A stretch of 23,490 bases of DNA, taken from positions 1 to 23,490 of the IMG/VR virus record IMGVR_UViG_3300042400_001741; one strand, written 5' to 3'. Positions 4,479 to 22,563 of this stretch are shown here, one piece after another (position 1 is the first letter of the stretch; the number at the start of each line of letters is the position of its first letter). The stretch is from a virus. Position numbers and translations under genes: made by a program. The notes beneath the pieces were generated by a model. That model ran no database searches. It was not told the origin of the DNA and was given only the letters and a program-made list of their open reading frames with translations.

Positions 4479-4483
4479 TCTAT

Positions 4484-4720: not shown

Positions 4721-4737
4721 AAAAACCTCATTTTCGC

Positions 4738-4767
4738 AAAAAATGCCGCTTAAAGCGGTATTTTTTT
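4738..4767 (+). terminator. Intrinsic terminator after the 78-aa gene
   Basis: The stem is TGCCGCT (4744-4750) with AGCGGTA (4754-4760), including one G-T pair, around a TAA loop. It is flanked by an A run and a T7 run, so A-T pairs lengthen the helix. It should stop rightward transcripts from gp20 and the 78-aa gene. It leaves the next gene either to read-through or to an AT-rich promoter near 4776-4786 that I cannot define well. Confidence 0.8.
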
Positions 4768-4796
4768 ATGATTACATTAAATAAATTTAATATTTG

Positions 4797-4802
4797 AAGG
4801 AG
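4797..4802 (+). promoter_or_regulatory. Ribosome binding site that fixes the start of the acidic core gene
   Basis: AAGGAG lies 6 nt before ATG 4809. The in-frame TTG at 4794 lies just upstream of this site and has no ribosome site of its own, so 4809 is chosen over the longer reading frame. Confidence 0.8.
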
Positions 4803-4808
4803 TTCTTT

Positions 4809-5672: not shown

Positions 5673-5684
5673 GGAAAACAAATA

Positions 5685-6308: not shown

Positions 6309-6318
6309 GAGATAGGCG

Positions 6319-7422: not shown

Positions 7423-7448
7423 CTTAGTTTAGGAGAAAAGGAAAGACT

Positions 7449-8624
7449 ATGAAAGCCGAACTATTAGAAAGCCGTTGGGGCGAGACCAAAGAAGCCCTGT
7501 TAGAAGGTCTACAAGGTTCTCGTCGTACATCAATGGCAACCGTTCTTGAAAATACTCGTAAGTATCTTGCAGAAAATGCAACTGCTGGTGCTACACAAGC
7601 TGGAAACGTTGCAACACTAAATCGTGTTATTCTACCAGTAATACGACGTGTTATGCCCACTGTTATCGCTAACGAAATCGTTGGCGTACAGCCCATGACA
7701 GGTCCTGTTGCTCAGATTCACACTCTACGTGTTCGCTATGCTGATAGCAACAACGCCGATGGTTCCGTCAATGACGTAACAGCCGGCGAAGAAGCACTTA
7801 GCCCCTTCAAAGTAGCTGTTGCTTACTCAGGTGATGGCACTGCCGGTAAAGCATCTAGTACAGCCGCTCTTGAAGGTCAAACTGGTCGTAAAATTAACGT
7901 CCAGATCTTAAAGCAGACAGTCGAAGCCCGTACACGTAAGTTAAGTGCACGTTGGACATTCGAAGCTGCTCAAGATGCACAAAGTATGCATGGACTTGAC
8001 ATCGAAGCAGAAATTATGGCTGCTCTTGCTCAAGAGATCACCGTTGAGATCGACCAAGAAATTCTTGCAAGTCTCCGTGCTCTTGCTGCCGATGAAGAAA
8101 CATATAACCAGGCTGCTGTAAGCGGTACAGCCACATTCGTTGGTGACGAGCACGCTGCTCTAGCTGTTCTAATCAACCGTGTTGCTAACAAGATCGCTCA
8201 GCGTACACGTCGCGGTGCAGGTAACTGGGCCGTTGTTAGCCCACAGGCTCTAACCGTTCTACAGAGTGCTACAACTTCAGCATTTGCTCGTACAACCGAA
8301 GGTACCTTCGAAGCTCCAACCAACACCAAGTTCGTTGGAACACTAAACGGTGCCATGAAAGTTTACGTTGACACCTATGCTGCAGATGACACTCGTGTAC
8401 TAGTTGGATATAAGGGAAGCAGTGAAACTGATGCTGCTGCATTCTATTGCCCATATATTCCTCTAATGAGTTCTGGTGTTGTTCTAGATCCAGCAACATT
8501 CGAACCAGTAGTCGGATTTATGACACGTTACGGATACGTCGAACTTACAAACAGTGCAAGTTCGTTCGGTAACGCTGCCGATTACCTTGGCGAGATCGTT
8601 GTTCAGAACATCGCATTCCAGTAA
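7449..8624 (+). CDS. 23: Major capsid protein precursor (T4 gp23 family)
   Basis: 391 aa. The start MKAELLESRWGETKEALLEG is followed by a helical propeptide-like region. The run NVATLNRVILPVIRRVMPTV (53-72), then ANEIVGVQPMTGPV, is the conserved gp23 core opening. Later recognisable parts are ARTRKLSARWTFEAAQDAQS, then HGLDIEAEIMAALAQEI, and near the C-terminus PYIPLMSSGVVLDPATFEP and GFMTRYGYVEL. Leu40-Ala41-Glu42 before Asn43 fits the gp21 cleavage pattern L/I-X-E and would leave a mature protein of about 349 aa. T4 gp23 is 521 aa and cyanophage versions are also longer, so loops or the insertion domain are reduced here. A double ribosome site (AGGAGA and AAGGA) precedes the ATG. A terminator follows at once, and no gp24-like paralogue is next to it. 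Confidence 0.95.
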   Translation: MKAELLESRWGETKEALLEGLQGSRRTSMATVLENTRKYLAENATAGATQAGNVATLNRVILPVIRRVMPTVIANEIVGVQPMTGPVAQIHTLRVRYADSNNADGSVNDVTAGEEALSPFKVAVAYSGDGTAGKASSTAALEGQTGRKINVQILKQTVEARTRKLSARWTFEAAQDAQSMHGLDIEAEIMAALAQEITVEIDQEILASLRALAADEETYNQAAVSGTATFVGDEHAALAVLINRVANKIAQRTRRGAGNWAVVSPQALTVLQSATTSAFARTTEGTFEAPTNTKFVGTLNGAMKVYVDTYAADDTRVLVGYKGSSETDAAAFYCPYIPLMSSGVVLDPATFEPVVGFMTRYGYVELTNSASSFGNAADYLGEIVVQNIAFQ

Positions 8625-8652
8625 TCAAATCTTCCAGTCGGGATGGGAAGTC

Positions 8653-8678
8653 AAAAAACCGCCGAAAGGCGGTTTTTT
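8653..8678 (+). terminator. Intrinsic terminator after gp23
   Basis: A perfect CCGCC/GGCGG stem (8659-8663, 8668-8672) is closed by a stable GAAA tetraloop and followed by T6. An A6 run upstream extends the helix and may let it work in both directions. It lies 28 nt after the gp23 stop, as expected for the end of the most heavily expressed transcript. Confidence 0.93.
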
Positions 8679-8711
8679 GTTGGCAGAAATTTTTACATCG
8701 ATTAGCAACAG

Positions 8712-8719
8712 TGTAAATA
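8712..8719 (+). promoter_or_regulatory. Candidate late promoter (TGTAAATA)
   Basis: TGTAAATATC differs from the exact box at 4471 (TATAAATATC) by one base. It lies between the gp23 terminator and the 75-aa gene, where a new promoter is needed if the terminator is effective. The leader would be about 45 nt. Confidence 0.45.
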
Positions 8720-8769
8720 TCTTTGCAGTTCACTCAACTGTTACACACATACACACAAAGGAGAACAAA

Positions 8770-8997
8770 ATGAGTAAAACACCATACGAGGTTCGCCTCG
8801 AACTACTTAAACTAGCCAACGAGATTCTTGTTACACCAATTCATCAATCTAGGGATGCTCTTTTACAAGAGTGGCATTCAAAGATAAGTGCTTCTCCGGA
8901 AAAATCCATACCTTTGCCTAATTTGCCTTCTTTTCCGAGAACCGAAGATGTTATAACAGAAGCCGAACGCCTAAATCGGTTTGTGAGCCAAAACTAA
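8770..8997 (+). CDS. Small protein downstream of gp23, function unknown
   Basis: 75 aa. The frame is open further upstream into gp23, but AAAGGAGA (8757-8764) fixes the start at ATG 8770. The N-terminus TPYEVRLELLKLANEIL is an amphipathic helix. The middle has HQSRDALLQEWHSKI, followed by a Pro/Ser-rich link, and the C-terminus is FPRTEDVITEAERLNRFVSQ. I remember similar small proteins ('...EIRLELLKMA...' at the start and '...A..LN.FVS' at the end) in marine T4-like phages near structural genes, but know no demonstrated function. It is a single-gene unit with a terminator on each side and its own candidate promoter, suggesting independent and possibly high expression. A role as a small virion or assembly factor is only inferred from location. 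Confidence 0.8.
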   Translation: MSKTPYEVRLELLKLANEILVTPIHQSRDALLQEWHSKISASPEKSIPLPNLPSFPRTEDVITEAERLNRFVSQN

Positions 8998-9019
8998 CAT
9001 CTTGGTGTAACATTAATAC

Positions 9020-9046
9020 AAAAAGCCCTATTAATTAGGGCTTTTT
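9020..9046 (+). terminator. Intrinsic terminator after the 75-aa gene
   Basis: The 11-bp stem AAAAAGCCCTA (9020-9030) with TAGGGCTTTTT (9036-9046) encloses a TTAAT loop. A further G and T6 continue the U-rich tail. The symmetric A and T runs make it potentially bidirectional. Confidence 0.92.
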
Positions 9047-9055
9047 GTTTTTTAC

Positions 9056-9063
9056 GGTAAATA
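9056..9063 (+). promoter_or_regulatory. Weak candidate late promoter (GGTAAATA)
   Basis: GGTAAATAT matches the last six bases of the late box but not its first two. It is listed because it sits right after a terminator and before an isolated gene that must have its own promoter. The 78 nt between it and the ATG at 9142 contain no better candidate that I can see. Confidence 0.3.
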
Positions 9064-9141
9064 TATTGTTCGCTCTAATAAAGAGTTTATGCAAATCCCA
9101 ATGCGTAGATCCTAGAACGATCATAATACAAGGAGAAAAAA

Positions 9142-10092
9142 ATGGGACGTCCGTTAAATAAAAAATATTTTGGTAACCGAAACGTTGGTAGTTCAAGTAC
9201 TACCGCCGACGATGGCCTTGGTGGAAATCGAGTAGCCAGTGTAACAATCACAACACCTGGTTCTTATACAACAAGACCTACTGTGACTTTTAGTGCTCCA
9301 GACTTAGCCGGACCTGGTGCTGTAACTGCCACTGGTACAACAAATATGGAAGCATTATCTGCTACCGTTGTTGACGGCAAGACAGGTTATGTAGTTGGTG
9401 ATTTGTTAACAATTACAGGTGCTGGCGGAGCAATTGCCTATGTCGCTTCGGTTGATGGTGTTACCGGTGCTGTATTAACAGTTAACTTTACTGGTACAGG
9501 AGCTGCTCGCGGAGATCAAACAGTTTTAACAGGTATTACTACTGCTGTTGTCACAACAACAAATAGTATTGCTGGTGTTGTTGGTGTAACATTAAATGTC
9601 TCTTATCGTGTTAAAAGTATTACAATAACTAATACCGGTTCTGGTTATACTGATGCAACTGATGCTGCTGTGACATTCAGTGCAGGAGCAGGAGCCGGTA
9701 CCGCTGTACTAGAATCATATACAGTTGGCGGTGTAATAGGTAACAACGAAAATGCAATTACAATCAGTGCATATATTCCTGCTGCTAACGGTGGATTATC
9801 TGCCAAGACTGGCGATATTATCAAACAGGTTTCTACCGATCGTTATCGTGTTAAAACTGCTGATGGCACTGGAATTTGTAAATTGGCCGCTGCTGCTCCC
9901 TCAGCAGGTCAAATGACAATGACTGCAACAGATAGTGCCGGTGGTACTTATTATGTTACTAAACTTACTTCACGTAAGGCATTATTAATTAAAGGTGATC
10001 GCACTGGTACACAATTTACCAGCGGAACAATGGTTGCCTGGAATTTTGATAGTGCTGTTCTTAATACCTCAGTAAAAATATCAAATGCTTAA
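9142..10092 (+). CDS. Virion structural protein with beta-repeat domains (MGRPLNKKYFG type)
   Basis: 316 aa with AAGGAGA 5 nt before the ATG. The opening MGRPLNKKYFGN is one I associate with structural proteins of marine T4-like phages. It is Gly/Thr/Val/Ala-rich and nearly devoid of helix-type sequence. Two related segments, VASVTITTPGSYTTRPTVTF (31-50) and VKSITITNTGSGYTDATDAA (157-176), are copies of a beta module with a G-S(-G)-Y-T turn followed by VTFS. A third, more distant copy is near 70-120. The C-terminal third (about 205-316) contains GDIIKQVSTDRYRVKTADGT and GGTYYVTKLTSRKALLIKGD, a separate beta domain. It may be a capsid decoration, neck or fibre-base protein; the location directly after the capsid genes mildly favours the first. 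It is enclosed by terminators on both sides, and no enzymatic motif is visible. Confidence 0.75.
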   Translation: MGRPLNKKYFGNRNVGSSSTTADDGLGGNRVASVTITTPGSYTTRPTVTFSAPDLAGPGAVTATGTTNMEALSATVVDGKTGYVVGDLLTITGAGGAIAYVASVDGVTGAVLTVNFTGTGAARGDQTVLTGITTAVVTTTNSIAGVVGVTLNVSYRVKSITITNTGSGYTDATDAAVTFSAGAGAGTAVLESYTVGGVIGNNENAITISAYIPAANGGLSAKTGDIIKQVSTDRYRVKTADGTGICKLAAAAPSAGQMTMTATDSAGGTYYVTKLTSRKALLIKGDRTGTQFTSGTMVAWNFDSAVLNTSVKISNA

Positions 10093-10109
10093 ACTTTGAT
10101 ATAAACCAC

Positions 10110-10133
10110 AAAAAGGGCCTTTGGGCCCTTTTT
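10110..10133 (+). terminator. Intrinsic terminator before the fibre operon
   Basis: The 10-bp stem AAAAAGGGCC (10110-10119) with GGCCCTTTTT (10124-10133) has a TTTG loop and is followed by GTTTG. It isolates the 316-aa virion gene from the fibre operon. Confidence 0.92.
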
Positions 10134-10160
10134 GTTTGACGATTATAATTATTTCGATAG

Positions 10161-10168
10161 CATAAATA
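10161..10168 (+). promoter_or_regulatory. T4-type late promoter of the fibre operon
   Basis: CATAAATA in the context CATAAATAACT matches the gp20 promoter over 11 nt. It lies 23 nt before the ATG at 10192 and after a strong terminator. No comparable box was seen before the four following genes, so it probably serves 10192-22067 as one operon. Confidence 0.72.
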
Positions 10169-10191
10169 ACTATAATTCAAGGTTATTGCAC

Positions 10192-13100
10192 ATGGCTGAA
10201 ATTAAAAGAGTTAACGGCGATTACACCATAAACACACTGGGAACTGGTTCAGACTTCTCAGCGATTACCAATAGTTCCAACAGTGACATTAATTTAACAA
10301 CCGCAGGAGCTAATTCGGATGTTAATATCACTGTTACTAATGATGTAAATATTGTTGCACCTGGCGGAACAAATATTACTTCTGACGTATTTGTTGAAGG
10401 AAATTTGATTGTTACGGGAACTATTGATTTTAGAAATGTCAAAAATCGGATATTTGTATCAAAGAATGGCAGCGATAGCAATGATGGTCGTAGCTGGGAC
10501 AAAGCAAAAAGAACTATCAAGAATGCTTGCCAAACTGCACAAAGTTTAATTTCTTCTCCTCCGGCTAACGAAGATCGGCAGTTAGAAAACGGTCATGTAA
10601 GTATTTTTGTAGCCAGTGGTGATTATACTGAAGATTGTCCTATTGCCGTTCCTACTGGTTGTGCAATTATCGGTGATAATCTAAGAAGCGTAACTGTACG
10701 TCCTTCTGTAGCCAGAAGCAATGTTTTTACACTAGGCAGTAATTGTTATGTCTGGGGATTGACAGTAAGGGGTCACCAACTGTATCCCAGTGCATTGGAT
10801 ATTACACCCGAGGGTTATGCGGGAGCGAACGGAAAACATCTACCAAGAAGCACTACACAAGTAGGTTTTGCTTTTAGCTTTACCCCTGGCGAAGTTATTC
10901 GTGTAAGTCCTTATATTCAAAACTGTTCAAGCATCAGCGGAAGCGGAATTTTTGGTAACCCGGATTATGTGCCCGGCGGCGGCGGAATCTTAGTTGATCC
11001 TAGCGTATGTGCCGAGGGTAATAGAATTAACAGTATCGTTCTTGATGCGTTCACACAGATTAATCAAGGCGGCATTGGTTGTAAAGTAGTTGGTCGTGGT
11101 TATATGCAGCTAGTTTCGTTCTTTGTTAACTTCTGTCAATTTGGTGTGCTCTGTGTTGATGGTGGTCACGTTACATTACTAAACTCTAACTGTTCGTTTG
11201 GTAACTATGCTTTCTGGGCCGAAGGAAAGCGTACACTAGTAAGAGAACCTGATGCTATCGATCCCAGCAATCCTGGTGTAACCTATCAAGAAGTTATACC
11301 ATACAAAGAAGCCAGAGAGTACTTACAGACAAATCGTTTGACATTACAAAACGATGTTGTAACTTGGGTTGATTCGGATGTAGTTGCTAACTATACAACC
11401 ACAGTAACCAATGTAGCGACCGGAACGAATCTTTTAACTGCTACTAATTCGGCTAAGTTATACCTAGGTATGCCGGTTAGATTTAGTGGCACTCTATTTG
11501 GCGGATTAAACAATTATACTACTTATTATGTTAATAGTATTAGTGGATCGGATTTTACTATAAGAAATGCTGCTGGATCGGTTATTACTTTTGGTAGTAA
11601 TGCCAGTGGCACAATGACAGTGGCATTTTATTATGATTCGGGTAAATGTAAACGTGATGTTGGATACATCATTGATGCCTTAATAGAAGATTTAAAAACC
11701 GACAGTGTTATATATTCTCGTAGAGCAGGAACTGCTTATTGGAGCGGTGTAACTAGCTTAGTAGAAGGGCAAGTGACACAAACAGTTGACGCAATCAGCG
11801 AGTTAGAAAGTTTATTAGAAACAGCATTCACCGGCGATCTTGAAAAAACAGTAGCATTGACACCAATTAAGTCTAGTCTGGCTACGATCAAAGATTTTAT
11901 TAAGTATGGACCTAACAAGCCTTTTGAGCAGGCTCGTACATTAATTGACAAAAATAGAACCTATATCGGCGATCAATTAATAATCTGGATCAATGCCCAA
12001 GTTTCTTTAGGAACCGGTTATTGGAGTGGATTTACTTATAATCAAACTAAATGTCGACGAGATGTTGATTATCTAATTGATGCAATTATCAGTGACTTAG
12101 TAACTGGAACTGGAAGAGCCAGTCGAACTGCTGGAAATGCATATTGGAAAGGAACAGTAGATATTCCTCTTCCGAGCCCAGTATCGATGATCACCGGGCA
12201 AGTTAGCCAAACAGTTGATGCCATAAACGAATTAAGAAATAAAATTTTAGATGTCATTAAAAATGTTGATATAGGTCAACCTGTAAGAAACGAATCTATA
12301 TACCCCGATGGAGACTTTGCTGAAAGTCCTGTGATAAGATATTTTACAACAATAACCGGAATTGTGGGAAGCCCAACTGGTCCTGATAAAGACGATTTGT
12401 TAATCAGTCCTTTATATGAATCTGCACGTAGATTAATGACTCTTAATAAAGAATTTATTAAGAAAGAAACTGTTGCTTATGTTAATAACGAATTAAGTTT
12501 ATCGGTTAAAGTTATTGGCTCTGATGCAGGAACAAATAGATTTACCTGTGTTTCTACCAGATCGTTAAGTGAAGGTAAGCCCATTAGATTTGTTAACGAT
12601 CCCAAAGGTGATCCAATTGATCCCGATGTATTTGGCGGAGTTACTGCCAATACAGTTTATTATGTCAAACAAGTGGTTAACAGTACTCAATTTACCATAA
12701 GCGAAACTTTAAATGGTGCTGTGTTTACAGTAACTCAAACCGTAAACGATAATACAATGTATGCCATATTCTATAGTCAAGAGAAATGCGAGCGTGATGT
12801 AGGATACATCATTGATGCAGTTGTTAGCGACTTAGCCACAAACAGCCAAGAATCAACATTAATGGCCGGTAATGCTTATTGGAGAGGAGCTAGCTCTATA
12901 TCAGCTGACTTTATTACTCAATTGCCCGACACATTAAGTGCAATTGATTATGCTAAACGATTAGCATTACAAATTATTAAAAGCGACACTACACCGCCAA
13001 TTGGCGATTCGGCATTGCTAGAACCCAGAGATATTTTCTTTAAGAGTGACGGAACTTCGGTGTATATTCTTGGTGGAGTTGGACCAAAGATTTATCAATA

Positions 13101-14544
13101 CACATGCAGCCCGGCATGGACTACCAGCGGGCTAACTTACGTAAACAGTTTTGATCTGTCAGATAAAGAAATAACTCCTCAAGGTATGTATCTTACCAGT
13201 ACAAAGTTATATGTTATTGGAACAGGTAGCGGAGACGATGTCACTGACGGTAGACTTGTTCTAGAATACGATATCACTGGGTGGAATGTCGCAACTGCAA
13301 GTTATTTACAACAAAAGAATCTGGGAGCACTAGCTGTTGGTTCTGGGTTTGTTGACAATCCTAGTGGTTTATCATTTAAGCCCGACGGAACAATAATGTA
13401 CGTTTTAGGATCTTCGGACGCTAAAGTATATTCTTATGCATTGTCTCCGGCATGGGATGTTACAACGGCAACATATTCGGCATCGTTTACTATTGCCGAG
13501 GATAATTTACCAACTGGAATAACATTCGATGGCGATGGAACTAGAATGTATATTGCTGGATCTACAAACGATATAGTAATTGATTATAAATTAAATTCAG
13601 CATATGATATTACCTCAGCCGTGTTTATGGAATCAATTGCTGTGTCTGATCGCGAGCAAGAGATTACCGGAGTTCATTTTAGATCCAATGGTGCCAAGAT
13701 GTATATAATTGGATTGGACAATGACAGTATTGTTGAATATAATCTTTTAACTGCATGGGATATCACATCGGCTGAGTATGCATCTAGTGTACCAGTCGGC
13801 TATTATAGCACACCTTATCAAGCAGCCGAAACTCAAAAATTTGTTGCTACCGTTACCAGTGTCGATTCGGTAGAAAATACTTTTATTTGTGATCCAACAT
13901 ATGGAACATTGTACCTAAAAGCAAACCAAGAAATTAAATTTGCTGCAGGATTAAGTGGATCGGTATTTGGAGGAGTTAGTGCAGGAACAACGTATTATAT
14001 TAAAACAATTGTCAGTGCCACACAATTTACCATAAGTGATACAATTAGTGCATCCGGCATAGCTGGCACCATAAAGACACTTGCTGGAGGCAATCCTTCG
14101 GGATCGATGGTTGTAGCTCCTTCGGGTGCTAGTGCTGCATTTGATGTAGAGAAGAATTTTAATACTATTATCAATATCATAAGTAATGGGTTTGAAGAAT
14201 TAGAAGAAGAATTTGGAAGTCTAGTTGAAGCCACAGGTTATACATTGAGTTATGCTGGTGCTGGAATTGATTATAGTAAACTAAGCAAAGGGCAAGGAGG
14301 AGTCGGCCTTGCAGATCCAAATAAATACACAATTGAGTTAAGTGGTGGACGAGTGTTTATTACTGCTACAGATGAAAAAGGAGACTTTTATGTTGGTAAA
14401 GTTACTCCGGCAGCAGCAGGACAAACCCCAAGACCATTATTTAGAATTAATCAAGAAACGGGTGCTATAGATGGTCGAGCATTTTATCAAAGCATTTTCG
14501 GATTTATGGCCCCGTTCGTTATGGCATTGACCAGAAGGAAATAA
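10192..14544 (+). CDS. Large tail fibre/adhesin: beta-helix plus beta-propeller
   Basis: 1450 aa. ATG 10192 is chosen, not the in-frame TTG at 10132, because the TTG lies within the terminator and upstream of the promoter; AAGG at 10179 and the MAEIKRVNGDYTI opening, known to me from marine T4-like fibres, agree. Domains: Asn/Thr-rich N-terminus (1-80); SKNGSDSNDG (90-99), typical of pectate-lyase-like right-handed beta-helix tailspikes, then beta-helix to about 390; three copies of a helical KCxRDVxYxIDA module (485, 620 and 865), each ending in a GxAYW motif; three copies of a beta module with YY(V/I)(N/K) and F(T/K)IS (about 410-480, 778-860, 1226-1300); five propeller-like repeats of about 50 aa (944-1202). 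The C-terminus has GRVFITATDEKGDFYVGKV, then GAIDGRAFYQSIFGFMAP. No chaperone domain or catalytic residues could be named. It is probably a virion-attached host-contact fibre. Confidence 0.82.
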   Translation: MAEIKRVNGDYTINTLGTGSDFSAITNSSNSDINLTTAGANSDVNITVTNDVNIVAPGGTNITSDVFVEGNLIVTGTIDFRNVKNRIFVSKNGSDSNDGRSWDKAKRTIKNACQTAQSLISSPPANEDRQLENGHVSIFVASGDYTEDCPIAVPTGCAIIGDNLRSVTVRPSVARSNVFTLGSNCYVWGLTVRGHQLYPSALDITPEGYAGANGKHLPRSTTQVGFAFSFTPGEVIRVSPYIQNCSSISGSGIFGNPDYVPGGGGILVDPSVCAEGNRINSIVLDAFTQINQGGIGCKVVGRGYMQLVSFFVNFCQFGVLCVDGGHVTLLNSNCSFGNYAFWAEGKRTLVREPDAIDPSNPGVTYQEVIPYKEAREYLQTNRLTLQNDVVTWVDSDVVANYTTTVTNVATGTNLLTATNSAKLYLGMPVRFSGTLFGGLNNYTTYYVNSISGSDFTIRNAAGSVITFGSNASGTMTVAFYYDSGKCKRDVGYIIDALIEDLKTDSVIYSRRAGTAYWSGVTSLVEGQVTQTVDAISELESLLETAFTGDLEKTVALTPIKSSLATIKDFIKYGPNKPFEQARTLIDKNRTYIGDQLIIWINAQVSLGTGYWSGFTYNQTKCRRDVDYLIDAIISDLVTGTGRASRTAGNAYWKGTVDIPLPSPVSMITGQVSQTVDAINELRNKILDVIKNVDIGQPVRNESIYPDGDFAESPVIRYFTTITGIVGSPTGPDKDDLLISPLYESARRLMTLNKEFIKKETVAYVNNELSLSVKVIGSDAGTNRFTCVSTRSLSEGKPIRFVNDPKGDPIDPDVFGGVTANTVYYVKQVVNSTQFTISETLNGAVFTVTQTVNDNTMYAIFYSQEKCERDVGYIIDAVVSDLATNSQESTLMAGNAYWRGASSISADFITQLPDTLSAIDYAKRLALQIIKSDTTPPIGDSALLEPRDIFFKSDGTSVYILGGVGPKIYQYTCSPAWTTSGLTYVNSFDLSDKEITPQGMYLTSTKLYVIGTGSGDDVTDGRLVLEYDITGWNVATASYLQQKNLGALAVGSGFVDNPSGLSFKPDGTIMYVLGSSDAKVYSYALSPAWDVTTATYSASFTIAEDNLPTGITFDGDGTRMYIAGSTNDIVIDYKLNSAYDITSAVFMESIAVSDREQEITGVHFRSNGAKMYIIGLDNDSIVEYNLLTAWDITSAEYASSVPVGYYSTPYQAAETQKFVATVTSVDSVENTFICDPTYGTLYLKANQEIKFAAGLSGSVFGGVSAGTTYYIKTIVSATQFTISDTISASGIAGTIKTLAGGNPSGSMVVAPSGASAAFDVEKNFNTIINIISNGFEELEEEFGSLVEATGYTLSYAGAGIDYSKLSKGQGGVGLADPNKYTIELSGGRVFITATDEKGDFYVGKVTPAAAGQTPRPLFRINQETGAIDGRAFYQSIFGFMAPFVMALTRRK

Positions 14545-14547: not shown

Positions 14548-15222
14548 ATGGCCGCACCAATTTTTAAATTTAAAAACGTTAGAGTTCCAATTACTACTAC
14601 CAATGATACCTTAGTTTATGCTGTGGATATAGGACTTGGATCTAGAGGACTTGATTTGGGTGTGTTGCCAGAGGAAGTAAGTTCAGTTGTGTTAACTGTT
14701 CAATGTGCAAATAATTGGTCTTATGTGCCCGACAAAACAATTTTATCTGTGGCCAATACCAACGATTTGTTTACAGTCGCAGATGCTTCGGATTTAAAAG
14801 TTGGGATGCAAGTATCGTTTCGTGGGTTAGCTTACGCAAATGTAACCTTAGCTGCACAAGGTGGAAACGGAAAAGTCTACTACATTAAAGAAATAATTGG
14901 AAATACATTTAAAGTATCTGAAACATTAGGCGGATCTGTATTTGCTATTACCTCTGACGGTGACAACGTAAGTGCTGGTGGATATATGTATATGGATATT
15001 GATTCCAGCGTAAGTGTAACAGCTAAGATAAGAGATTTAAACTTGAATACCAGTGTGAATCTTGTGTCTGATTATTCCGTATTGCCTAATAATGCGTTTG
15101 ATCCGCTTAACGGTAATCTAGTATTAACATCAAAGTTAGCTTTAATTATACAAGCTGACGTACCAAATGCAATTGATGTCACAGTAAGTTTATTGGAGAT
15201 TGCTAATGCCACGGCTACTTGA
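14548..15222 (+). CDS. Fibre-associated virion protein sharing a module with the preceding fibre
   Basis: 224 aa, starting 3 nt after the previous stop codon, with AGAAGGAAA upstream. The N-terminus is MAAPIFKFKNVRVPITTTND. The region from about 65 to 135 has DLFTVADASDLKVGMQVSF, then KVYYIKEIIGNTFKVSETLG. This is the beta module seen three times in the 1450-aa fibre. The C-terminal part (about 150-222) returns to the main domain, with SVSVTAKIRDLNLNTSVNLV and a beta-rich end. The N- and C-terminal parts resemble small structural proteins of cyanophages, as far as I recall, with the module inserted between them. The gene overlaps the next one by 17 nt and therefore is probably translationally coupled to it. 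It may link fibre to baseplate or be a short fibre part. No enzyme motif is seen. Confidence 0.72.
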   Translation: MAAPIFKFKNVRVPITTTNDTLVYAVDIGLGSRGLDLGVLPEEVSSVVLTVQCANNWSYVPDKTILSVANTNDLFTVADASDLKVGMQVSFRGLAYANVTLAAQGGNGKVYYIKEIIGNTFKVSETLGGSVFAITSDGDNVSAGGYMYMDIDSSVSVTAKIRDLNLNTSVNLVSDYSVLPNNAFDPLNGNLVLTSKLALIIQADVPNAIDVTVSLLEIANATAT

Positions 15223-18200
15223 TCCGCGTTTTACTAAAGGTCTTGTTGATTCACCCAATGGTTATGTTCGCGAGGATGGAAGTCCGGCACAACCCAATGA
15301 CCTTGTTTTAGTTAATCGCGATGGTCGTAGTATAACCTTTGTTGATCAAACAACAGTACTATCTCCTACGAAATATTATTTTCAAGCTGAACGACCTGCT
15401 GGACCCGACGAAAACTTTAATGCTGGCGATCGCTGGATTGATATTGACACCGGAAGAGAATATACTTGGATTAGAGACGGAAGCACAACACCCACTGAAG
15501 GTCAATGGGTTGAAACCGGACCCGAAGGTGGAATAGGCCCCACTGGTCCCACTGGCCCCACTGGTCCCACTGGCCCAACAGGTGCTTATGGCCCTAGCAT
15601 CGCAATTGTAGGATCTGTTCCTACAGTGGGCGGAGATCCTCAAGCAACATTAAATGCAGCCTTTGCCCCGAACACTGCTGGTGATGCTGCATTTGCAGTA
15701 GATACTGGATTTTTATGGGTATACGATGGTGCAAACTGGATAAATGTTGGACAGTATGTTGGTCCTACTGGTCCTACAGGTGCTGTTGGTCCAACTGGTC
15801 CTACGGGTGTTAGCGGCTGGTCGGGTATTTCGGGTTTTTCTGGTAGTTTTGGGGAAAGCGGATATTCAGGATACAGCGGAAGCGGTGTAAGTGGATATTC
15901 TGGACGCAGTGGATTCAGCGGCAAAGGCGAATCAGGATTTAGCGGTTGGAGCGGACGCAGCGGTTGGAGCGGCCGCAGCGGTTGGAGCGGCGTTAGTGGA
16001 TATAGTGGATTTACAGGGCCCACTGGACCGCAAGGAGCCGGAATTGTAATTCGTGGGGTTTTATTAGATGCTAGTGCACTGGAAAATATTACCCCAATCA
16101 CTGAATCTGATGCTTATATTGTCGGGACCGATTTGTATGTTTGGAATGCAGGATCGGGTAATTGGTATAATGTTGGTCCATTTAGAGGGCCCACTGGTGA
16201 TAGCGGATATAGCGGACGTAGTGGTTGGTCGGGATTTAGTGGTATAAGTGGATTCAGTGGATTCAGTGGTCAAAGCGGTACCAGTGGATGGAGCGGTATC
16301 AGTGGATGGTCCGGACTTAGTGGATTTAGCAGTTTTTCTGGAATCAGTGGCTGGTCGGGTATCAGCGGATTTAGTGGTTTCAGTGGTCGCAGTGGCTGGA
16401 GTGGATTTAGTGGATTGAAGGGTGACACTGGTGCTCCGTTAGCAATACAGGCAAGAAATACTCCGCCAACACCTAATCCCAATGATTTAGTAACACAAGA
16501 TCCCGGTGCTGGTCAAGATGGTGATGCTTTCCTTGTTGACGGAAATCTTTGGGTATGGGCCGAAACCTTATGGATAAATGCAGGTAATATCAGAGGCGAA
16601 AGCGGATATAGTGGATATAGTGGTAGCGGTGTAAGCGGTTGGTCGGGCTTTAGCGGCACCAGTGGATGGAGCGGATTTTCGGGGATCAGCGGTTGGTCGG
16701 GGATCAGTGGATACAGCAGTTTTAGTGGTATCAGTGGATGGAGCGGTATCAGTGGGTGGAGTGGCTTTGCCGGAGACAAATATAAAACTAGTTCTTCAAC
16801 TGCACAGAGTACCACATTAGGTTCCAAGACATTTACAGTTGATACTGGATTAGCATACACAGTTGGACAGAATGTTATAATTGTTTGGACCAACGACACA
16901 TCAGTAAAAATGCAGGGTTTTGTTCAGAGTTATAATCCTGCCAATGGTCAGCTAGTAGTTTCGGTTGATTTAGTTGAAACCGGCAGTCTTGGTACTCAGA
17001 CTAATATCAATCCTTGGACGATTAACGTAGCAGGCATAACTGGGTTAAGTGGTTATTCAGGTACCAGTGGATGGTCGGGAATTAGCGGTTGGAGCGGTAT
17101 CAGTGGATGGTCGGGAATTAGCGGTTGGAGCGGTATCAGTGGATGGAGTGGTATTAGTGGATGGTCAGGCACACCCGGCGATCTTTATAAAACAACTAGT
17201 AACACTACAGTTAATTTAGGTTCGATAAATCCGGGGGATTCTGTTGTTCTAGGGGGAGTTGGTGCGAATCTTGCCTACACACCAAATCAAGTTGTAGTTG
17301 TATCAAATTCGTTAAGCAATTATTTTGAAGGACGAGTTAGTGCATACAATCCCAACACACCATCATTAACAGTTTTAGTTGTGGCTAAAGTTGGAACAGG
17401 TAGTCTTAACTCTTGGACTATAAACTTAGTGGGTACTTCAGGAACCTCGGGATTCAGCGGTATTAGCGGTTGGTCTGGAATCAGTGGGTGGAGTGGACAT
17501 TCGGGAATTAGTGGATGGAGCGGCGAATCGGGTGTCAGTGGATGGAGTGGACAGTCGGGAATTAGCGGATGGTCAGGTATCAAAGGCGATCTGTATAAAA
17601 CCACCGGTACAACTTCTGTTATAAATCTAACTACTCAACAAGTTGGAAATTCAGTTACTTTAACTGATGTTGCTAATAATCTTGCTTATACTCCTGGACA
17701 AAATGTAGTTGTTTCTTCTACAACACAAAATTATTTTGCTGGACGAGTCGATACCTACAACAGTGGAACACAAACACTAGTTGTTATAATTGAAAAAATT
17801 TCCGAGACTGCAAGTAACACCAACATAACAAGTTGGGATGTTAATTTAGCAGGAACTCAAGGTATTAGTGGTACCAGTGGATATTCGGGACTCAGCGGAA
17901 GCGGCATTAGCGGCTGGAGTGGAGCTAAAGGTGATAGCGGATGGTCGGGAATTAGTGGCTGGTCGGGAATTAGTGGCTGGTCGGGATTATCTGGTGCACC
18001 GGGCGATCGTTACAGAACTACAACAACACAAAATTATGTTTTAGCAGATAAAACACCGGGGATAAGTCACACTATATTAATCGGTACAGGATTGGCTTAT
18101 ACTACAAATCAAGATATCAGTGTAGTTTTTTCAGTTAACCGATTTTTTGTTGCTAAAGTTGTAAGTTATAATACAGGAACCGGGGAATTAGTATTTTCGG

Positions 18201-20083
18201 TTGTTTCTACAGGAACTGATCCACATGATACATCAGTTACTTGGACAGTAAACTTAATTGGAGCCACTGGCGGAAAAGGCGACAGTGGCTTGAGCGGATG
18301 GAGCGGAGCCACAGGTAGTGGTATCAGTGGATGGAGCGGATGGAGCGGTCAGAGCGGAATCAGCGGTTGGTCTGGTATCAGCGGTTGGTCTGGTAAGCCC
18401 GGTGACTTGTATAAAACATCAAGCACATCGATTTTAAATTTAAACAATGTAGCCACTGATTTTGGTGGTGAAAGTAGACCTCCTGTAGTTGTTGGGTCAG
18501 GTATAACACTAACAGTAGGAACAGGGCTTGCTTATACAACAAATCAATCGGTAGTAATTTCAAACAGCCTCACAAATTGGATTAAAGGTGATGTATCAGA
18601 TTACAATTCGGGTACCGGAGTACTACAAGTTATAGTTACTGCTAAAAACGGAACTGGAGTACAAAACAGTTGGGCTGTGAACCTATTAGGTAGTTTAGGT
18701 ATCAGCGGAACCAGCGGATTTAGCGGATGGAGTGGTATTCCCGGAGACTTATATAAGACGGTGCTGACAAATACTCTGATCAATCTTTCGGCATTGGTTG
18801 TTGGAAATAATACAACTATATCTGGTGTTCCAACTAATAGAGCATATAGTACAGGTCAACGATTAGTTGTAGCTAATACATCAACACAATATTTTGAAGG
18901 ACTTGTTTTCAGTTTCACCAACGGTGATCTAGTAATTACAGTTGAAAGAATTGTTGGAGCGACTCAGGCCAGTACTTGGACTATCAATTTACTTGGAATA
19001 AAAGGCGAAAGCGGCTTTAGTGGTTGGAGTGGCAAAGGCGATAGCGGTATCAGTGGTTGGAGCGGTGCCAAGGGCGATAGCGGTATCAGTGGTTGGAGCG
19101 GTCGAGGCGAGTCCGGGTGGTCGGGTATTAGTGGCTGGTCGGGTATCAGCGGGTGGAGCGGCAAAGACGCCACCGGATCAACTGGAAGTCGGGGTGATCG
19201 AGGTGGATATAGATTTAATTTTAGTACTACAACAAACACAAACGAAGACCCTGGGGTTAGCAATATAAGACTTAATAATGCAACATTTAGTTCTGTTACT
19301 CAGGTCACAATCAGTAAAACAGATGCATTTGGATTTGTACATAATAATCTCTTTACATTTGATTACGATCAATTAACATTTATATCAAATAATTATTCTA
19401 CTGTTGTTCCAGTGATGACTTTCCGAGTTACTGCTCGTGATGTACAAACTAATTATGTTCGATTCACTGTTAGTCCTGTTGATGGACTAATACCTACAAA
19501 TAACAATGAACCAATGATATTGTTGTTTTCTGGTAAAGGTACCAGTGGATTTAGTGGTTGGAGTGGTAAAGGAGAAAGCGGCTTTAGTGGTTATTCGGGA
19601 AGAGATGGTGCAGTTGCTGGTTCAAATACACAATTTTTATATAATAACAACAGTGCAGTTGGCGGAGCTAATGTGTATTACACCACTAATGCATCTATTC
19701 CAACAGTCCGAATAGGTATTAATCAAGCATCACCTGCTGCTGCATTATTAGATGTAAATGGCCCTGTTGTTTCTTCAGAATATAACCCTTCTGCAAATAC
19801 TGGTACATTTGATTGTGCTCTCTCGAATTATACCAGAGTATCATGGAATAATGCAACTATTAATCCTTCATTTACAAATGTTCCTGCAAGTAGAGTAGTT
19901 GAAGTTATTTGGGAAATAGCAATAGGAACAGCAGTGACTATTAATTGGCCGAACAGTATAAAATGGGCCGATAGCGGAACTGCTCCGGTGCTGACAGAAA
20001 ATACAACCACTATATTTGTTTTTATAACAAGAAATGGTGGAACAACCTGGTATGGCAGTTATCTAAAAAATTATGCTATTTAA
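15206..20083 (+). CDS. Giant collagen-like fibre with Gly-X-Ser blocks and globular beads
   Basis: 1625 aa from ATG 15206, with GGAG 8 nt upstream; the TTG two codons earlier is too close to that site. Residues 1-106 form a globular head with GDRWIDIDTGREYTWIRDG and QWVETGPEG. A (GPT)n run follows (111-127). Three related inserts (about 131-184, 270-328, 405-463) have L(W/Y)VW or LWVYDG followed by W-X-N-(V/A)-G. Six copies of another insert (about 522-613, 656-745, 793-886, 932-1021, 1065-1165, 1178-1266) start GD(L/K/R)Y(K/R)T and contain (L)AY(T/S)...Q...(V/F)...(S/A)YN and end W(T/D/A)(I/V)N(L/V). One different insert is at about 1328-1445. About ten Gly-X-Ser blocks, with X mainly Trp, Ile, Phe or Tyr, join them. 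The C-terminal 155 residues look like a beta-rich tip. No protease or transmembrane motif is seen. The likely role is an extended, trimeric host-binding fibre; trimerisation is inferred from the collagen-type periodicity. Confidence 0.85.
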   Translation: MPRLLDPRFTKGLVDSPNGYVREDGSPAQPNDLVLVNRDGRSITFVDQTTVLSPTKYYFQAERPAGPDENFNAGDRWIDIDTGREYTWIRDGSTTPTEGQWVETGPEGGIGPTGPTGPTGPTGPTGAYGPSIAIVGSVPTVGGDPQATLNAAFAPNTAGDAAFAVDTGFLWVYDGANWINVGQYVGPTGPTGAVGPTGPTGVSGWSGISGFSGSFGESGYSGYSGSGVSGYSGRSGFSGKGESGFSGWSGRSGWSGRSGWSGVSGYSGFTGPTGPQGAGIVIRGVLLDASALENITPITESDAYIVGTDLYVWNAGSGNWYNVGPFRGPTGDSGYSGRSGWSGFSGISGFSGFSGQSGTSGWSGISGWSGLSGFSSFSGISGWSGISGFSGFSGRSGWSGFSGLKGDTGAPLAIQARNTPPTPNPNDLVTQDPGAGQDGDAFLVDGNLWVWAETLWINAGNIRGESGYSGYSGSGVSGWSGFSGTSGWSGFSGISGWSGISGYSSFSGISGWSGISGWSGFAGDKYKTSSSTAQSTTLGSKTFTVDTGLAYTVGQNVIIVWTNDTSVKMQGFVQSYNPANGQLVVSVDLVETGSLGTQTNINPWTINVAGITGLSGYSGTSGWSGISGWSGISGWSGISGWSGISGWSGISGWSGTPGDLYKTTSNTTVNLGSINPGDSVVLGGVGANLAYTPNQVVVVSNSLSNYFEGRVSAYNPNTPSLTVLVVAKVGTGSLNSWTINLVGTSGTSGFSGISGWSGISGWSGHSGISGWSGESGVSGWSGQSGISGWSGIKGDLYKTTGTTSVINLTTQQVGNSVTLTDVANNLAYTPGQNVVVSSTTQNYFAGRVDTYNSGTQTLVVIIEKISETASNTNITSWDVNLAGTQGISGTSGYSGLSGSGISGWSGAKGDSGWSGISGWSGISGWSGLSGAPGDRYRTTTTQNYVLADKTPGISHTILIGTGLAYTTNQDISVVFSVNRFFVAKVVSYNTGTGELVFSVVSTGTDPHDTSVTWTVNLIGATGGKGDSGLSGWSGATGSGISGWSGWSGQSGISGWSGISGWSGKPGDLYKTSSTSILNLNNVATDFGGESRPPVVVGSGITLTVGTGLAYTTNQSVVISNSLTNWIKGDVSDYNSGTGVLQVIVTAKNGTGVQNSWAVNLLGSLGISGTSGFSGWSGIPGDLYKTVLTNTLINLSALVVGNNTTISGVPTNRAYSTGQRLVVANTSTQYFEGLVFSFTNGDLVITVERIVGATQASTWTINLLGIKGESGFSGWSGKGDSGISGWSGAKGDSGISGWSGRGESGWSGISGWSGISGWSGKDATGSTGSRGDRGGYRFNFSTTTNTNEDPGVSNIRLNNATFSSVTQVTISKTDAFGFVHNNLFTFDYDQLTFISNNYSTVVPVMTFRVTARDVQTNYVRFTVSPVDGLIPTNNNEPMILLFSGKGTSGFSGWSGKGESGFSGYSGRDGAVAGSNTQFLYNNNSAVGGANVYYTTNASIPTVRIGINQASPAAALLDVNGPVVSSEYNPSANTGTFDCALSNYTRVSWNNATINPSFTNVPASRVVEVIWEIAIGTAVTINWPNSIKWADSGTAPVLTENTTTIFVFITRNGGTTWYGSYLKNYAI
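15536..15571 (+). repeat. 18-bp tandem repeat encoding GPTGPT
   Basis: Two exact copies of GGCCCCACTGGTCCCACT (15536-15553, 15554-15571) are followed by a diverged third copy. They code for collagen-type Gly-Pro-Thr triplets. Shorter GPT runs recur near 15760-15806, 16014-16030 and 16186-16196. Confidence 0.92.
15808..19611 (+). repeat. Family of interspersed Gly-X-Ser coding repeats
   Basis: About ten blocks of 9-bp triplet code (AGY/TCN-GGN-X) lie at roughly 15808-16010, 16195-16420, 16597-16770, 17047-17170, 17441-17580, 17866-18000, 18271-18400, 18701-18740, 19006-19165 and 19540-19611. Their protein period is three residues, often doubled to six (GWSGIS). Codons for Ser (AGT, AGC, TCG, TCA) and Gly vary freely while the amino acids are kept, so DNA identity is only moderate outside 17066-17137. 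Confidence 0.88.
17066..17137 (+). repeat. Exact 36-bp tandem duplication in the giant fibre gene
   Basis: Bases 17066-17101 and 17102-17137 are identical over 36 bp, in frame, encoding S-G-W-S-G-I twice per unit (residues 621-632 and 633-644). Within each unit the two 18-bp halves code the same six residues with different codons. A diverged third copy follows, to about 17168. Confidence 0.93.
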
Positions 20084-21584
20084 AAAATTACTTTTTTCGT
20101 CGGCCACTCAACAAAAGGCTCAGGAGTTTGGTGCTTTTGGTGGAACATCAATCGATATGACCCCAATAAAAATGCTTTCAACAGAGTCGGGGCAAATTAT
20201 TATTGTATTAAAACAGTATTTGCTTCTATTTAATGCAAACGGACAATTAATAAATCAACGAAGAGTTAACAGCGGAAATGCAGAGTTTTTTGATGCAATG
20301 ATGATCAACGGGACGACCTTTGCAGTCGGGGTTATTAACTATACTTTTGCAAGTACGTACGGTGCAATTGGTTATTTAAGATTTGCAATAGCAAATTCTT
20401 TGTCTATATCACAACTTGACTCTTATGCATATTCGGCTCAAATTGGTTGGTCGTCGAGATCTTATTACTATGTTGATAGTATAAGTTCTAGTTTGCCTTT
20501 TTCTAATGCTAAACTGTTCTATAAAAATTCTCAAGAAGTCTATTTGGCAAATTGTGAATTTAATGAATCTATTAGATTAACTAAGTATAACGAAGATACA
20601 GATTCGGTTGTATGGTCAAGACGGATAAATTTTGCTGGCTTTTATTCGAATTTTCAGGCTAGAAATATTAAAAATGTGAATTTAACTGGCCTTGTTGTAT
20701 CTGGATCACAAATCACAGTTTTAGGAACATACACCTATTATGAAAATGTCTGGTATGATGATGGTTATGCAGAATATGACAATTTTAACTATGGGTTTTA
20801 TGTAACGCTAAACTCCAGCGGATCTCCTACATCATCTACACTTTTTTCGAGGGCAGTGAGTAGTGGTTCCCTCCCTTGGTCAACACATTTAACAAATTGT
20901 TTTTTCGACAGTGCTAACGATAAGATTCATATCACTGGATTTCATAAAAATGTTAATAATTCAATTGCACTTTTTAAATTCGAAAGACCTTATGTGTTGG
21001 ATATTCCGAATGTATCTACATTAATTAATCTCCCCAGTCGACATCGAATGTCAGGAGGGAACTATTATTTGGACCGTCCCTTCGGAATAGCATACAACAC
21101 AACTAACCAACAAACATATATAAATGGACAAAAAGATACAGATTATAGTTTTTCTGGACTCAATAAGCAATCATTGAGAAAATTTCCGCTTTATGGGACT
21201 CAGGGAGTTGGTTATGTGACTAAAGAAATAAATCCTGTGTTTTTTGGAAGTTTGCTCGGCAAAGAATGTATAGTATCAGCAGATGGTTCTTCTTTGTTAA
21301 CAGCTACAACCTGGGGAACTAGGCTAGTATTGGCTGGCCACAATCTTGAAGATTTAGCATTTCTTGAAGGACAGGGAACAAGGACAATTTCCGGAACAGA
21401 GTTTGATGGAATGTCTGATCATGGTGTTGACCAGTATTACTACAGTGCTTTAGTACGGCTCCTATCAGATAGGATACCAGATCCGAGCACTATAATAAGT
21501 GTTACTTCAGCAACTTCGCCATATATTGGTATATATTTGGTTGTTGTTGGTAGTTCGTCGGATATTAAAAGTATCTCGCCATAA
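20073..21584 (+). CDS. Unidentified protein of the fibre operon, possibly a receptor-binding beta-propeller
   Basis: 503 aa. ATG 20073 overlaps the end of the giant fibre gene by 11 nt and has no clear ribosome site, so translational coupling is likely. The sequence is rich in Tyr, Ser, Asn and Phe, with alternating hydrophobic beta strands and little helix. Strand-turn-strand units that may be propeller blades are GQIIIVLKQYLLLFNANGQL (about 40-59), SQEVYLANCEFNESIRLTKY, GSQITVLGTYTYYENVWYDD, DKIHITGFHKNVNNSIALFK, TYINGQKDTDYSFSGLNKQS and GSSLLTATTWGTRLVLAGHN. I cannot assign a family. A position between the giant fibre and a tail-fibre chaperone suggests a distal fibre tip or receptor-binding subunit. 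No enzymatic motif or signal peptide is visible. The fold and role are inferred, not shown. Confidence 0.7.
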   Translation: MLFKKLLFSSATQQKAQEFGAFGGTSIDMTPIKMLSTESGQIIIVLKQYLLLFNANGQLINQRRVNSGNAEFFDAMMINGTTFAVGVINYTFASTYGAIGYLRFAIANSLSISQLDSYAYSAQIGWSSRSYYYVDSISSSLPFSNAKLFYKNSQEVYLANCEFNESIRLTKYNEDTDSVVWSRRINFAGFYSNFQARNIKNVNLTGLVVSGSQITVLGTYTYYENVWYDDGYAEYDNFNYGFYVTLNSSGSPTSSTLFSRAVSSGSLPWSTHLTNCFFDSANDKIHITGFHKNVNNSIALFKFERPYVLDIPNVSTLINLPSRHRMSGGNYYLDRPFGIAYNTTNQQTYINGQKDTDYSFSGLNKQSLRKFPLYGTQGVGYVTKEINPVFFGSLLGKECIVSADGSSLLTATTWGTRLVLAGHNLEDLAFLEGQGTRTISGTEFDGMSDHGVDQYYYSALVRLLSDRIPDPSTIISVTSATSPYIGIYLVVVGSSSDIKSISP

Positions 21585-21596: not shown

Positions 21597-22067
21597 ATGC
21601 TTTTTGCTAGAATAGAAAATAATCAAATAGTTGAGTATCCGGTTGATATATTTAATGCATACCCGAATATTTCTTTTTCGGTCCCGATATCTGTTCAAGC
21701 TCTTCCAGAAGGTATTGTTGTAGTTAAAGAACAGAATCGAACAGCACACAACAAATATAGTCACAGGCTAATAGAATCGACCCCGATATTTGAAAACAAC
21801 GAGTGGATCCAAAATTGGGTTTTAGAAGAATTATCTGAGGAAGAAAAGTCCCAAAAAGATATTGGCTATAGAAGTAGTATCATAGTAGAAAGAAATTATC
21901 GACTGTTGAACTCTGATTGGACCGAGTTACCTTCTGTACAAAAAATGAAATCTGAAGAATGGAAAAGTGCATGGGAAATATACAGACAAGCACTACGAGA
22001 CGTACCCGAGCAAACAGGCTTTCCATATAATGTTATTTGGCCCGAAGAACCGAGTATTAACTCGTAA
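21597..22067 (+). CDS. Tail fibre assembly chaperone-like protein
   Basis: 156 aa with AAGGAA 5-10 nt before the ATG, 12 nt after the previous gene. The C-terminal 55 residues read RNYRLLNSDWTELPS, then EEWKSAWEIYRQALRDVPEQ, then GFPYNVIWPEEP. This is the signature I know from the phage tail assembly chaperone (APC) domain, R-x-x-L-L-x-x-S-D-W-T ... W-x-x-Y-R-Q-x-L-R-D ... WP-x-x-P. The N-terminal half (MLFARIENNQIVEYPVDIFN) is a small beta domain often found before it. Such proteins are usually encoded next to fibre genes and assist folding or trimerisation of the fibre tip. It is the last gene of the operon, so the clients are probably the 503-aa or 1625-aa proteins. Its last 11 nt overlap the end of the opposing Nudix gene. 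Confidence 0.85.
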   Translation: MLFARIENNQIVEYPVDIFNAYPNISFSVPISVQALPEGIVVVKEQNRTAHNKYSHRLIESTPIFENNEWIQNWVLEELSEEEKSQKDIGYRSSIIVERNYRLLNSDWTELPSVQKMKSEEWKSAWEIYRQALRDVPEQTGFPYNVIWPEEPSINS

Positions 22068-22074
22068 TTTTTTT
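22051..22074 (+). terminator. Short terminator hairpin in the overlap of two convergent genes
   Basis: CGAGT (22051-22055) and ACTCG (22060-22064) form a 5-bp stem with an ATTA loop, followed by TAA and T7 (22068-22074). The stem lies within the last codons of the chaperone gene and across the stop codon of the opposing Nudix gene. The stem is short, so efficiency is uncertain. The leftward direction lacks a good U tract. Confidence 0.5.
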
Positions 22075-22563
22075 AATTGCAATAATCTTACTGTTAATTT
22101 CTTCTAATCTCAATGTTCGAAATAATCCCGGATGTAATGGTCTAGGAATATCTGAGATAGAAGTCCAGGCATAACCTCGATGTTCACTGTTTAATGTTGG
22201 AACAAATTCATTGTCTACAATAACAATATAGGTATGATATACAAAATAATTATTGTCGGCAGTGTAAGTTTCTAAAGGGATTAGTTTTTCTTTATGTAAT
22301 ATGACGCCAATTTCTTCTTGAACTTCACGCTTTAAGCTTTGAATTACAGTTTCCCCGGGGTCAACTTTTCCCCCGGCAATGCCCCAGGTATTAGCAAACT
22401 TTCCGTTATTTCTCAATAAGAAAAGATATCGACCGGTTTGATTACAATAAATTAATGCACCAACACTTTCAATTGCTACTGCATAAGGCTCTACAAAATC
22501 AAACTCCACTGGCCTGCTGGGTAATGTCCCTGAAAACTCTTTAACCATTCTGTTCCATTCCAT
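22057..22563 (-). CDS. Nudix hydrolase
   Basis: 168 aa. The Nudix box is complete at residues 65-87: Gly65, Glu71, Arg79-Glu80, Glu83-Glu84 and Gly86 fit GX5EX7REUXEEXGU. A beta strand with GALIYCNQTGRYLFLLRN precedes it, and NTWGIAGGKVDPGE leads into the box. Nudix enzymes hydrolyse nucleoside diphosphates linked to another moiety; the substrate (oxidised dNTP, NADH, ADP-ribose, RNA cap) cannot be read from this sequence. ATG 22563 overlaps the upstream gene by 73 nt and has no clear Shine-Dalgarno. ATG at 22548 (GGAA upstream) or GTG at 22509 (19-nt overlap) are alternatives that retain the Nudix domain. CTTAAATA, a weak late-box match at 22587-22580, precedes it. It converges on the fibre operon, which makes it a probable accessory gene in a structural region. 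Confidence 0.9.
   Translation of the reverse strand: MEWNRMVKEFSGTLPSRPVEFDFVEPYAVAIESVGALIYCNQTGRYLFLLRNNGKFANTWGIAGGKVDPGETVIQSLKREVQEEIGVILHKEKLIPLETYTADNNYFVYHTYIVIVDNEFVPTLNSEHRGYAWTSISDIPRPLHPGLFRTLRLEEINSKIIAIKKITS

Follow-up and report, generated by a model that had tools for sequence, protein, structure and literature searches.

The 23,490-base virus record IMGVR_UViG_3300042400_001741, referred to here as the window, carries T4-type structural genes according to gene calls and profile searches, and by that gene content it is a fragment of a T4-like phage, a virus of bacteria. Our subject is one large gene within it, encoding a protein in which blocks of glycine triplets, mostly Gly-X-Ser (GXS or GxS; X and Y denote the second and third triplet positions), alternate with inserts that we call beads. 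The reading frame is open throughout from a TTG at 15200 (ATG at 15206) to 20083, with no internal stop, and specifies 1,625 amino acids (aa). The product scores 181.9 bits against PF01391, for which the cut-off is 27.2, and very probably is a tail fibre. The gene sits among virion genes (gp20, a gp21-type protease, gp23, baseplate and sheath-type genes), shares few-base overlaps with its neighbors on both sides, and has a 503-aa gene and then a PF16778 chaperone gene downstream. A beads-on-a-string virion fibre is well supported as a prediction by matches to tail-fibre PHROGs, the T4-like neighbors, the downstream chaperone and a fast-diverging tip.

A preliminary description of this DNA had proposed a giant beads-on-a-string fibre, and the architecture bears this out: a 104-aa N-terminal domain is followed by 11 glycine-triplet blocks (594 residues) alternating with 10 inserts, and by a 155-residue tip (Table 1). 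Glycine recurs at every third residue over long stretches, giving 198 Gly-x-y triplets in 22 strict runs, in keeping with the PF01391 match. At the usual collagen rise of 0.286 nm per residue, the blocks would sum to ~170 nm. The description's Gly-Pro-X opening, giving way to Gly-X-Ser with large X residues, is likewise present. After the N-terminal domain the fibre starts with GPEGGIGPTGPTGPTGPTGPTGAYGPS (block 1, Gly-Pro-Thr or GPT), and in block 2 GPT passes into GVS GWS GIS GFS with the triplet register unbroken. Over all blocks Y is Ser in 140 of 198 triplets, and X is Trp (42), Ile (34), Phe (19) or Tyr (11) in 106. Proline is as scarce as was claimed (12 of 587 block residues once the first block is excluded), but the claim of almost no charge was overstated, as the blocks hold 52 charged residues among 616, a good part of them in Lys/Arg-Gly-Asp/Glu pairs. 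A Trp at every sixth residue describes 15 of the 26 neighboring Trp pairs, with 7 more spaced nine apart; GWSGIS alternation is perfect in some stretches, so that the proposed Trp stripe survives as a local feature and not as a regular one.

Table 1. Features of the fibre gene and its surroundings (window coordinates, except the last row).
Feature	Position	Strand	Basis or remark
Beads-on-a-string, very probable tail fibre, 1,625 aa	15206..20083	+	PF01391, tail-fibre PHROGs; frame can start at TTG 15200
N-terminal domain, residues 1-104, presumed virion attachment	15206..15517	+	Nearly identical in L003
Block 1, Gly-Pro-Thr type collagen repeat	15518..15598	+	
Bead 1, DxLWVYDGxNWxNVG type	15599..15760	+	Relatives with GxS, GxQ or GxT flanks
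Block 2, GPT into GXS in same register, two G1G interruptions	15761..16042	+	
Bead 2, bead-1 type	16043..16186	+	
Block 3, GXS, terminal GLKGDTGAP	16187..16438	+	
Bead 3, bead-1 type	16439..16594	+	
Block 4, GXS, single Gly-to-Ser site (GYSSFSGIS)	16595..16780	+	
Bead 4, predicted small beta barrel ('GTG' bead)	16781..17032	+	Bead alignment; AF2 of bead 7
Block 5, GXS, long Trp/Ile alternation	17033..17185	+	
Bead 5, GTG type	17186..17431	+	Bead alignment
Block 6, longest strict run (18 triplets)	17432..17593	+	
Bead 6, GTG type	17594..17851	+	Bead alignment
Block 7, GXS with GAKGDS	17852..18010	+	
Bead 7, GTG type	18011..18259	+	AF2 model
Block 8, GXS	18260..18409	+	
Bead 8, GTG type with insertion	18410..18688	+	Bead alignment
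Block 9, GXS, 7 triplets	18689..18751	+	
Bead 9, GTG type	18752..18994	+	Bead alignment
Block 10, GXS with KGD/KGE/RGE pairs, G1G interruptions	18995..19210	+	
Bead 10, third bead type	19211..19537	+	43 non-redundant relatives with GxS, GxT or GxQ flanks
Block 11, short GXS block preceding tip	19538..19615	+	
C-terminal tip, predicted beta-sandwich, presumed trimerising and receptor-binding end	19616..20080	+	Divergence from L003; low-confidence AF2 model
503-aa gene, possible second adhesin	20073..21584	+	Overlaps fibre gene; replaced in L003
Tail-fibre assembly chaperone	21597..22067	+	PF16778
NUDIX hydrolase gene	22057-22563	minus	Between fibre chaperone and sheath-type gene
Protein matching tail-sheath families	Right end of window	minus	
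Baseplate protein	2-517	minus	
Portal gp20	2742-4466		
Prohead protease (gp21-type)	5685-6308		
gp23-type capsid protein	7449-8624		
Large tail-fibre-type protein	10132-14544		
Methylophilaceae phage P19250A protein 0023	L253:3719-7324 (KX815270.1 21390-24995)		Labelled 'tail length tape-measure protein'

Selection on the glycine-triplet blocks

The closest distinct relative of the window, L003 (84% identity in the best segment), was compared with it codon by codon. Glycine codons differ by 81 silent changes and a single replacement, and the Ser codons at Y by 71 silent changes and 4 replacements, with 24 silent Ser changes crossing between AGY and TCN codons. At X, replacements outnumber silent changes (49 and 28), the residues varying mainly among Trp, Phe, Ile, Tyr, Thr and Arg. 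The inserts together with the N-terminus show 142 silent changes and 86 replacements, while the tip shows 35 and 83 and is 44% identical to that of L003, against about 90% for the rest of the fibre. The number of triplets per block is kept nearly everywhere. These counts indicate that the Gly-x-Ser pattern and the block length are under selection and that the identity of X is not.

Tandem DNA repeats of 9, 18, 27 and 36 bp in the fibre gene are what a functionless repeat, arising by chance or by DNA slippage alone, might leave behind. We consider such an origin extremely improbable, because Ser is encoded in the blocks by a mixture of codons (106 AGY, 34 TCN), Gly by all four of its codons, and purifying selection has kept both residues in L003 despite many silent changes; the repeat is, moreover, spread over many viral contigs.

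Viral spread and exchangeable repeat dialects

On the sequences collected, the Gly-X-Ser repeat is common in viral metagenomes. Scanning viral contigs for a Trp-containing hexad pattern returned at least 120 stretches. Glycine-triplet proteins were then compiled without redundancy from fetched loci, and because they were gathered partly by GxS patterns their proportions are not abundances: the per-protein Ser share at Y is bimodal, below 0.1 in 56 proteins and at least 0.6 in 77. In 67 GxS proteins with 10,724 triplets, Ser makes up 89.8% of Y, and X is Tyr (20%), Ile (19%), Thr (16%), Phe (13%), Trp (9%), Val (6%) or Pro (0.8%), aromatics together accounting for about 42%. One GXS protein (L108, a 3400-aa frame on the minus strand at 3028-13227) has about 805 triplets and as a fully extended rod would measure ~690 nm, far beyond typical phage particle length. 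A 735-kb metagenomic phage (LR756501.1; L252:596-8182) has a 2,529-aa open frame made almost entirely of Gly-Thr-Ser-like repeats, with about 746 triplets.

Searching for the three bead families of the window across all fetched viral loci linked GxS blocks to other repeat types. The GTG beta-barrel bead occurs in 91 non-redundant copies, of which 36 have GxS on both flanks, 17 GxT and 15 GxQ, mixed flanks being few, and the two other families show the same three flank dialects. Around related beads of all three families, then, GxS blocks exchange with classical Gly-Pro/Ala-Thr or with Gly-x-Gln blocks. Since related beads occur in proteins of different dialects, mostly one dialect to a protein, the blocks appear to be interchangeable rods. 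Prokaryotic Gly-Pro/Ala-Thr stalks form triple helices (review PMC8968730; phage case PMC3368898), and the simplest reading is therefore that GxS rods do the same job. That one protein mostly keeps one dialect on either side of its beads may reflect concerted evolution, folding or the host.

The bead had no match among plasmids, and the whole fibre gene had no DNA-level match in phage records with the low-complexity filter on. In a protein search of phage records the sole match was to the tip of a Limnohabitans phage, whose region has no long glycine-triplet run. A pattern scan of genome contigs gave mainly short, probably chance matches in G+C-rich genomes and was not used for any conclusion.

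Sequence rules, predicted structure and the fold of the blocks

We think it probable that the blocks form collagen-type triple helices, the trimer and the helix being suggested by the repeat pattern, its selection, its exchange and its sequence rules. Favoring this reading are the continuity of register from GPT, the exchange of dialects, the one-way orientation of KGD/KGE pairs, the near-total restriction of Gly replacements to Ser or Ala, and a rule governing neighboring X residues.

The neighbor rule was derived from 56 bulky GxS fibres compared with shuffled sequences. Identical X residues in adjacent triplets are depleted (0.089 observed, 0.199 shuffled), as seen for Ile-Ile (56 against about 360) and Trp-Trp (20 against about 83), and an aromatic residue beside a beta-branched one is preferred. 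The effect is only weakly present among Ser and Gly codons, so the rule lies mainly at the protein level, and it is what a three-residue helix would give if its X side chains were stacked on a single face. Alternation of this kind, perfect in the GWSGIS stretches of the window, and the predominance at X of strong beta formers (Tyr, Ile, Thr, Phe, Trp and Val) could also point to beta structure, either a hexapeptide beta-helix or a cross-beta arrangement, in which Trp and Ile would line opposite faces. Such a fold would need a long two-triplet parity, and X class identity at lag 3 equals its shuffled value (0.425 in both) across the 56 fibres, which argues against beta strands, in which adjacent X residues would face opposite sides. 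Single-residue G1G interruptions, which make up 76% of short interruptions in GxS and 81% in GxQ fibres (counts in which repeats inside one protein may enter more than once), would flip the faces, and around related beads the place of GxS is taken by GPT and GxQ blocks. Beta structure is thus very unlikely.

Structure prediction with AlphaFold2 (AF2) of a block-bead-block segment (bead 7, 68 sequences) gave a confident all-beta bead, with a predicted local distance difference test score (pLDDT) of about 79-96 over the core. In this monomer model the blocks lack secondary structure (pLDDT about 42-55), as they would if they were unstructured sticky linkers between folded beads and tip; their composition also resembles low-complexity Gly/Ser/aromatic sequence, like the Gly/Ser-Tyr-Gly/Ser repeats of phase-separating proteins such as FUS, and the aromatics of the blocks would make weak contacts. 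Because no triple helix could appear in a model of one chain, this outcome favors neither an obligate trimer nor a linker. Linkers are nonetheless improbable given the strong selection on Gly, with 81 silent changes to 1 replacement, the block lengths in whole triplets, and the near-exclusive use of the smallest residues in place of Gly: of 50 lone Gly replacements across the 56 fibres, 47 are to Ser or Ala, although here too repeats inside one protein may enter more than once. A linker would also leave unexplained the exchange with collagen-type GPT/GAT blocks and the oriented KGD/KGE signature. Collagen has a specific K-G-D/E stabilisation rule. In the window [KR]G[DE] occurs 11 times against 0.74 expected by shuffling, the reversed order does not occur, and the Lys/Arg-Gly-Asp/Glu pairs stand in Y-Gly-X' order, in which Lys pairs stabilise collagen (Persikov 2005, as cited in PMC9599227).

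Another rival would be a non-collagen, polyproline-II-type assembly resembling polyglycine II (PGII), with Gly and Ser faces packed and bulky X residues pointing outwards or interlocking between chains or fibres. It would account for two nearly invariant positions beside a variable X and for a Y that is Ser in 90% of 10,724 triplets, and the X neighbor rule suits stacking along one face of a three-residue helix. A small-residue face could not, however, be filled by the Gln or Thr found at Y in interchangeable blocks, the long runs lack the turns of single-chain PGII bundles, and GPT continues in the same register; we regard this assembly as rather unlikely. The PGII bundle adhesins of T-even phages (S16 gp38 type), which sit at the distal end of fibres, consist of short Gly-rich three-residue helices with turns between them in a single chain. 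Here, strict runs reach 18 triplets with no turn motifs seen, and relatives have hundreds of triplets per protein. Of the folds offered by the preliminary description (a collagen triple helix, a PGII-like bundle or a new fibrous fold), the evidence favors the collagen-type helix, whereas the single-chain, turn-containing bundle is disfavored by the long, unbroken runs.

Several observations weigh against a collagen-type helix. Y is nearly as constrained as Gly, and a plain collagen helix needs no such Y; host-guest peptides place Trp at X and Ser at Y with the weaker triple-helix residues; and the GXS composition is far from that of all studied phage collagens. G1G makes up only 18% of interruptions in GxT fibres. 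KGD/KGE pairs occur in just 3 of the 56 related GxS fibres, for which reason axial salt bridges were rejected as a general stabiliser of the family. Exchange of repeat units between blocks could be another source of the joint silent and X changes that separate the window from L003.

A PDB sequence search with a block returned mostly collagens, a result driven by glycine periodicity and so no evidence of fold, and the 'spindlefibril/axialfibril' chain of PDB 8zxl aligned through its Pro-containing GAPG repeat, again by Gly periodicity. The bead had no PDB match at E up to 0.001, and its model matched BFVD entries from uncultured Caudovirales phages that bear the name 'collagen triple helix repeat' or tail fibre. 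The tip was modelled weakly as a beta-sandwich, and at a mean pLDDT of only 52.5 its structural neighbors (Z 5-7.5; mostly phage capsid spike, tailspikes, and T4 gp10 and gp9 of the baseplate) are a lead only.

On balance, a homotrimeric T4-like tail fibre with Pro-poor, aromatic, collagen-like rods is the arrangement that we consider probable. Three parallel chains would run from an N-terminal virion anchor to the C-terminal tip, which probably starts trimerisation with the aid of the downstream-encoded chaperone and would bind the host surface; the ten beads may be spacers or extra binding knobs. In the rods, Gly would occupy the tight core, with Ser and the bulky X residues outside. As they lack Pro and most charge, GXS rods cannot rely on the usual stabilisers, and stability would probably come from the blocks being short (no strict run here exceeds 18 triplets) and clamped at either end by folded parts, from hydration of the Ser hydroxyls that line the rod, from aromatic X residues touching beta-branched ones, and from the occasional KGD/KGE pair.

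Neighboring genes, known counterparts and significance

The gene following the fibre gene differs between the two phages: in place of the 503-aa gene, L003 (5885-10615) has a 1,576-aa DUF285/BspA-like protein with a glycine-rich C-terminus, and the flanking genes are conserved, so that by gene content the exchange looks like an adhesin swap. Upstream, one stretch of the protein at 10132-14544 is weakly similar to lactonase/gluconolactonase beta-propellers.

Like the window fibre, the side-tail proteins EPclA and EPclB of E. coli O157:H7 prophages have Gly-X-Y stalks between globular domains, with GPK-G(D/E) pairs comparable to the KGD/KGE pairs described here, and they were shown to form trimers that contain a triple-helical domain and lack hydroxyproline (PMC3368898). 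In composition the two diverge. Proline fills 48% of X in the EPclP stalks, which are rich in charges and devoid of Phe, Trp, Tyr, His and Cys (PMC3368898 Table 4), whereas in GXS blocks 0.8% of X is Pro, about 42% is aromatic, and 90% of Y is Ser; collagen is described as having few aromatic residues (PMC12086834). The blocks thus lack the makeup of Pro- or charge-stabilised collagens of the EPclP, Scl and BclA type, with Pro-rich X, charged or Thr/Gln/Ala Y, and aromatics absent or rare.

Proteins of the same kind as the window fibre are already deposited as PF01391 'Collagen triple helix repeat' proteins of uncultured Caudovirales phages (BFVD/UniProt, e.g. A0A6J5NUZ5), and searching with the predicted bead-plus-flanks model retrieved such entries at E values as low as 1e-9, the best rows being 30-46% identical. 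Their collagen names look like automatic annotation by Gly periodicity, and no published study of them was found. Among cultured phages, the freshwater Methylophilaceae phage P19250A (KX815270), a siphovirus (PMC8163748) and in this unlike the window, has a 1,201-aa protein (0023) with long G-(Y/F/I/W)-S blocks and other inserts. Its gene lies downstream of that for host specificity protein J, and as another gene is labelled tape-measure protein 1, the 'tail length tape-measure' label on protein 0023 is probably wrong. Mycobacteriophage matches to this protein were set aside: they concern its C-terminal region, and the one such protein read, Alice gp108, has no GXS block.

The existence of GXS-class proteins is not new, since deposited sequences already bear the name collagen, but the repeat has apparently never been studied as a material; we found no description of GXS fibres in the literature searched, which left most subscription journals outside. 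Tentatively, the longest tail fibres of many metagenome phages might be made of material unlike known collagen: nearly Pro-free, charge-poor GXS rods with two constrained faces (Gly and Ser) and a locally alternating aromatic/beta-branched one, representing either a new three-residue-helix fold or a new way of stabilising a triple helix. The stability of a collagen-type rod that has hardly any Pro, lacks hydroxyproline, carries little charge and places aromatics at more than 40% of X poses a question for collagen chemistry, one that thousands of natural triplets with a strong neighbor rule make directly testable with synthetic peptides. For the phages themselves, the finding marks a large, automatically labelled class of host-recognition fibres, with at least three exchangeable rod dialects (Gly-x-Ser, Gly-x-Thr and Gly-x-Gln) and shared beads.

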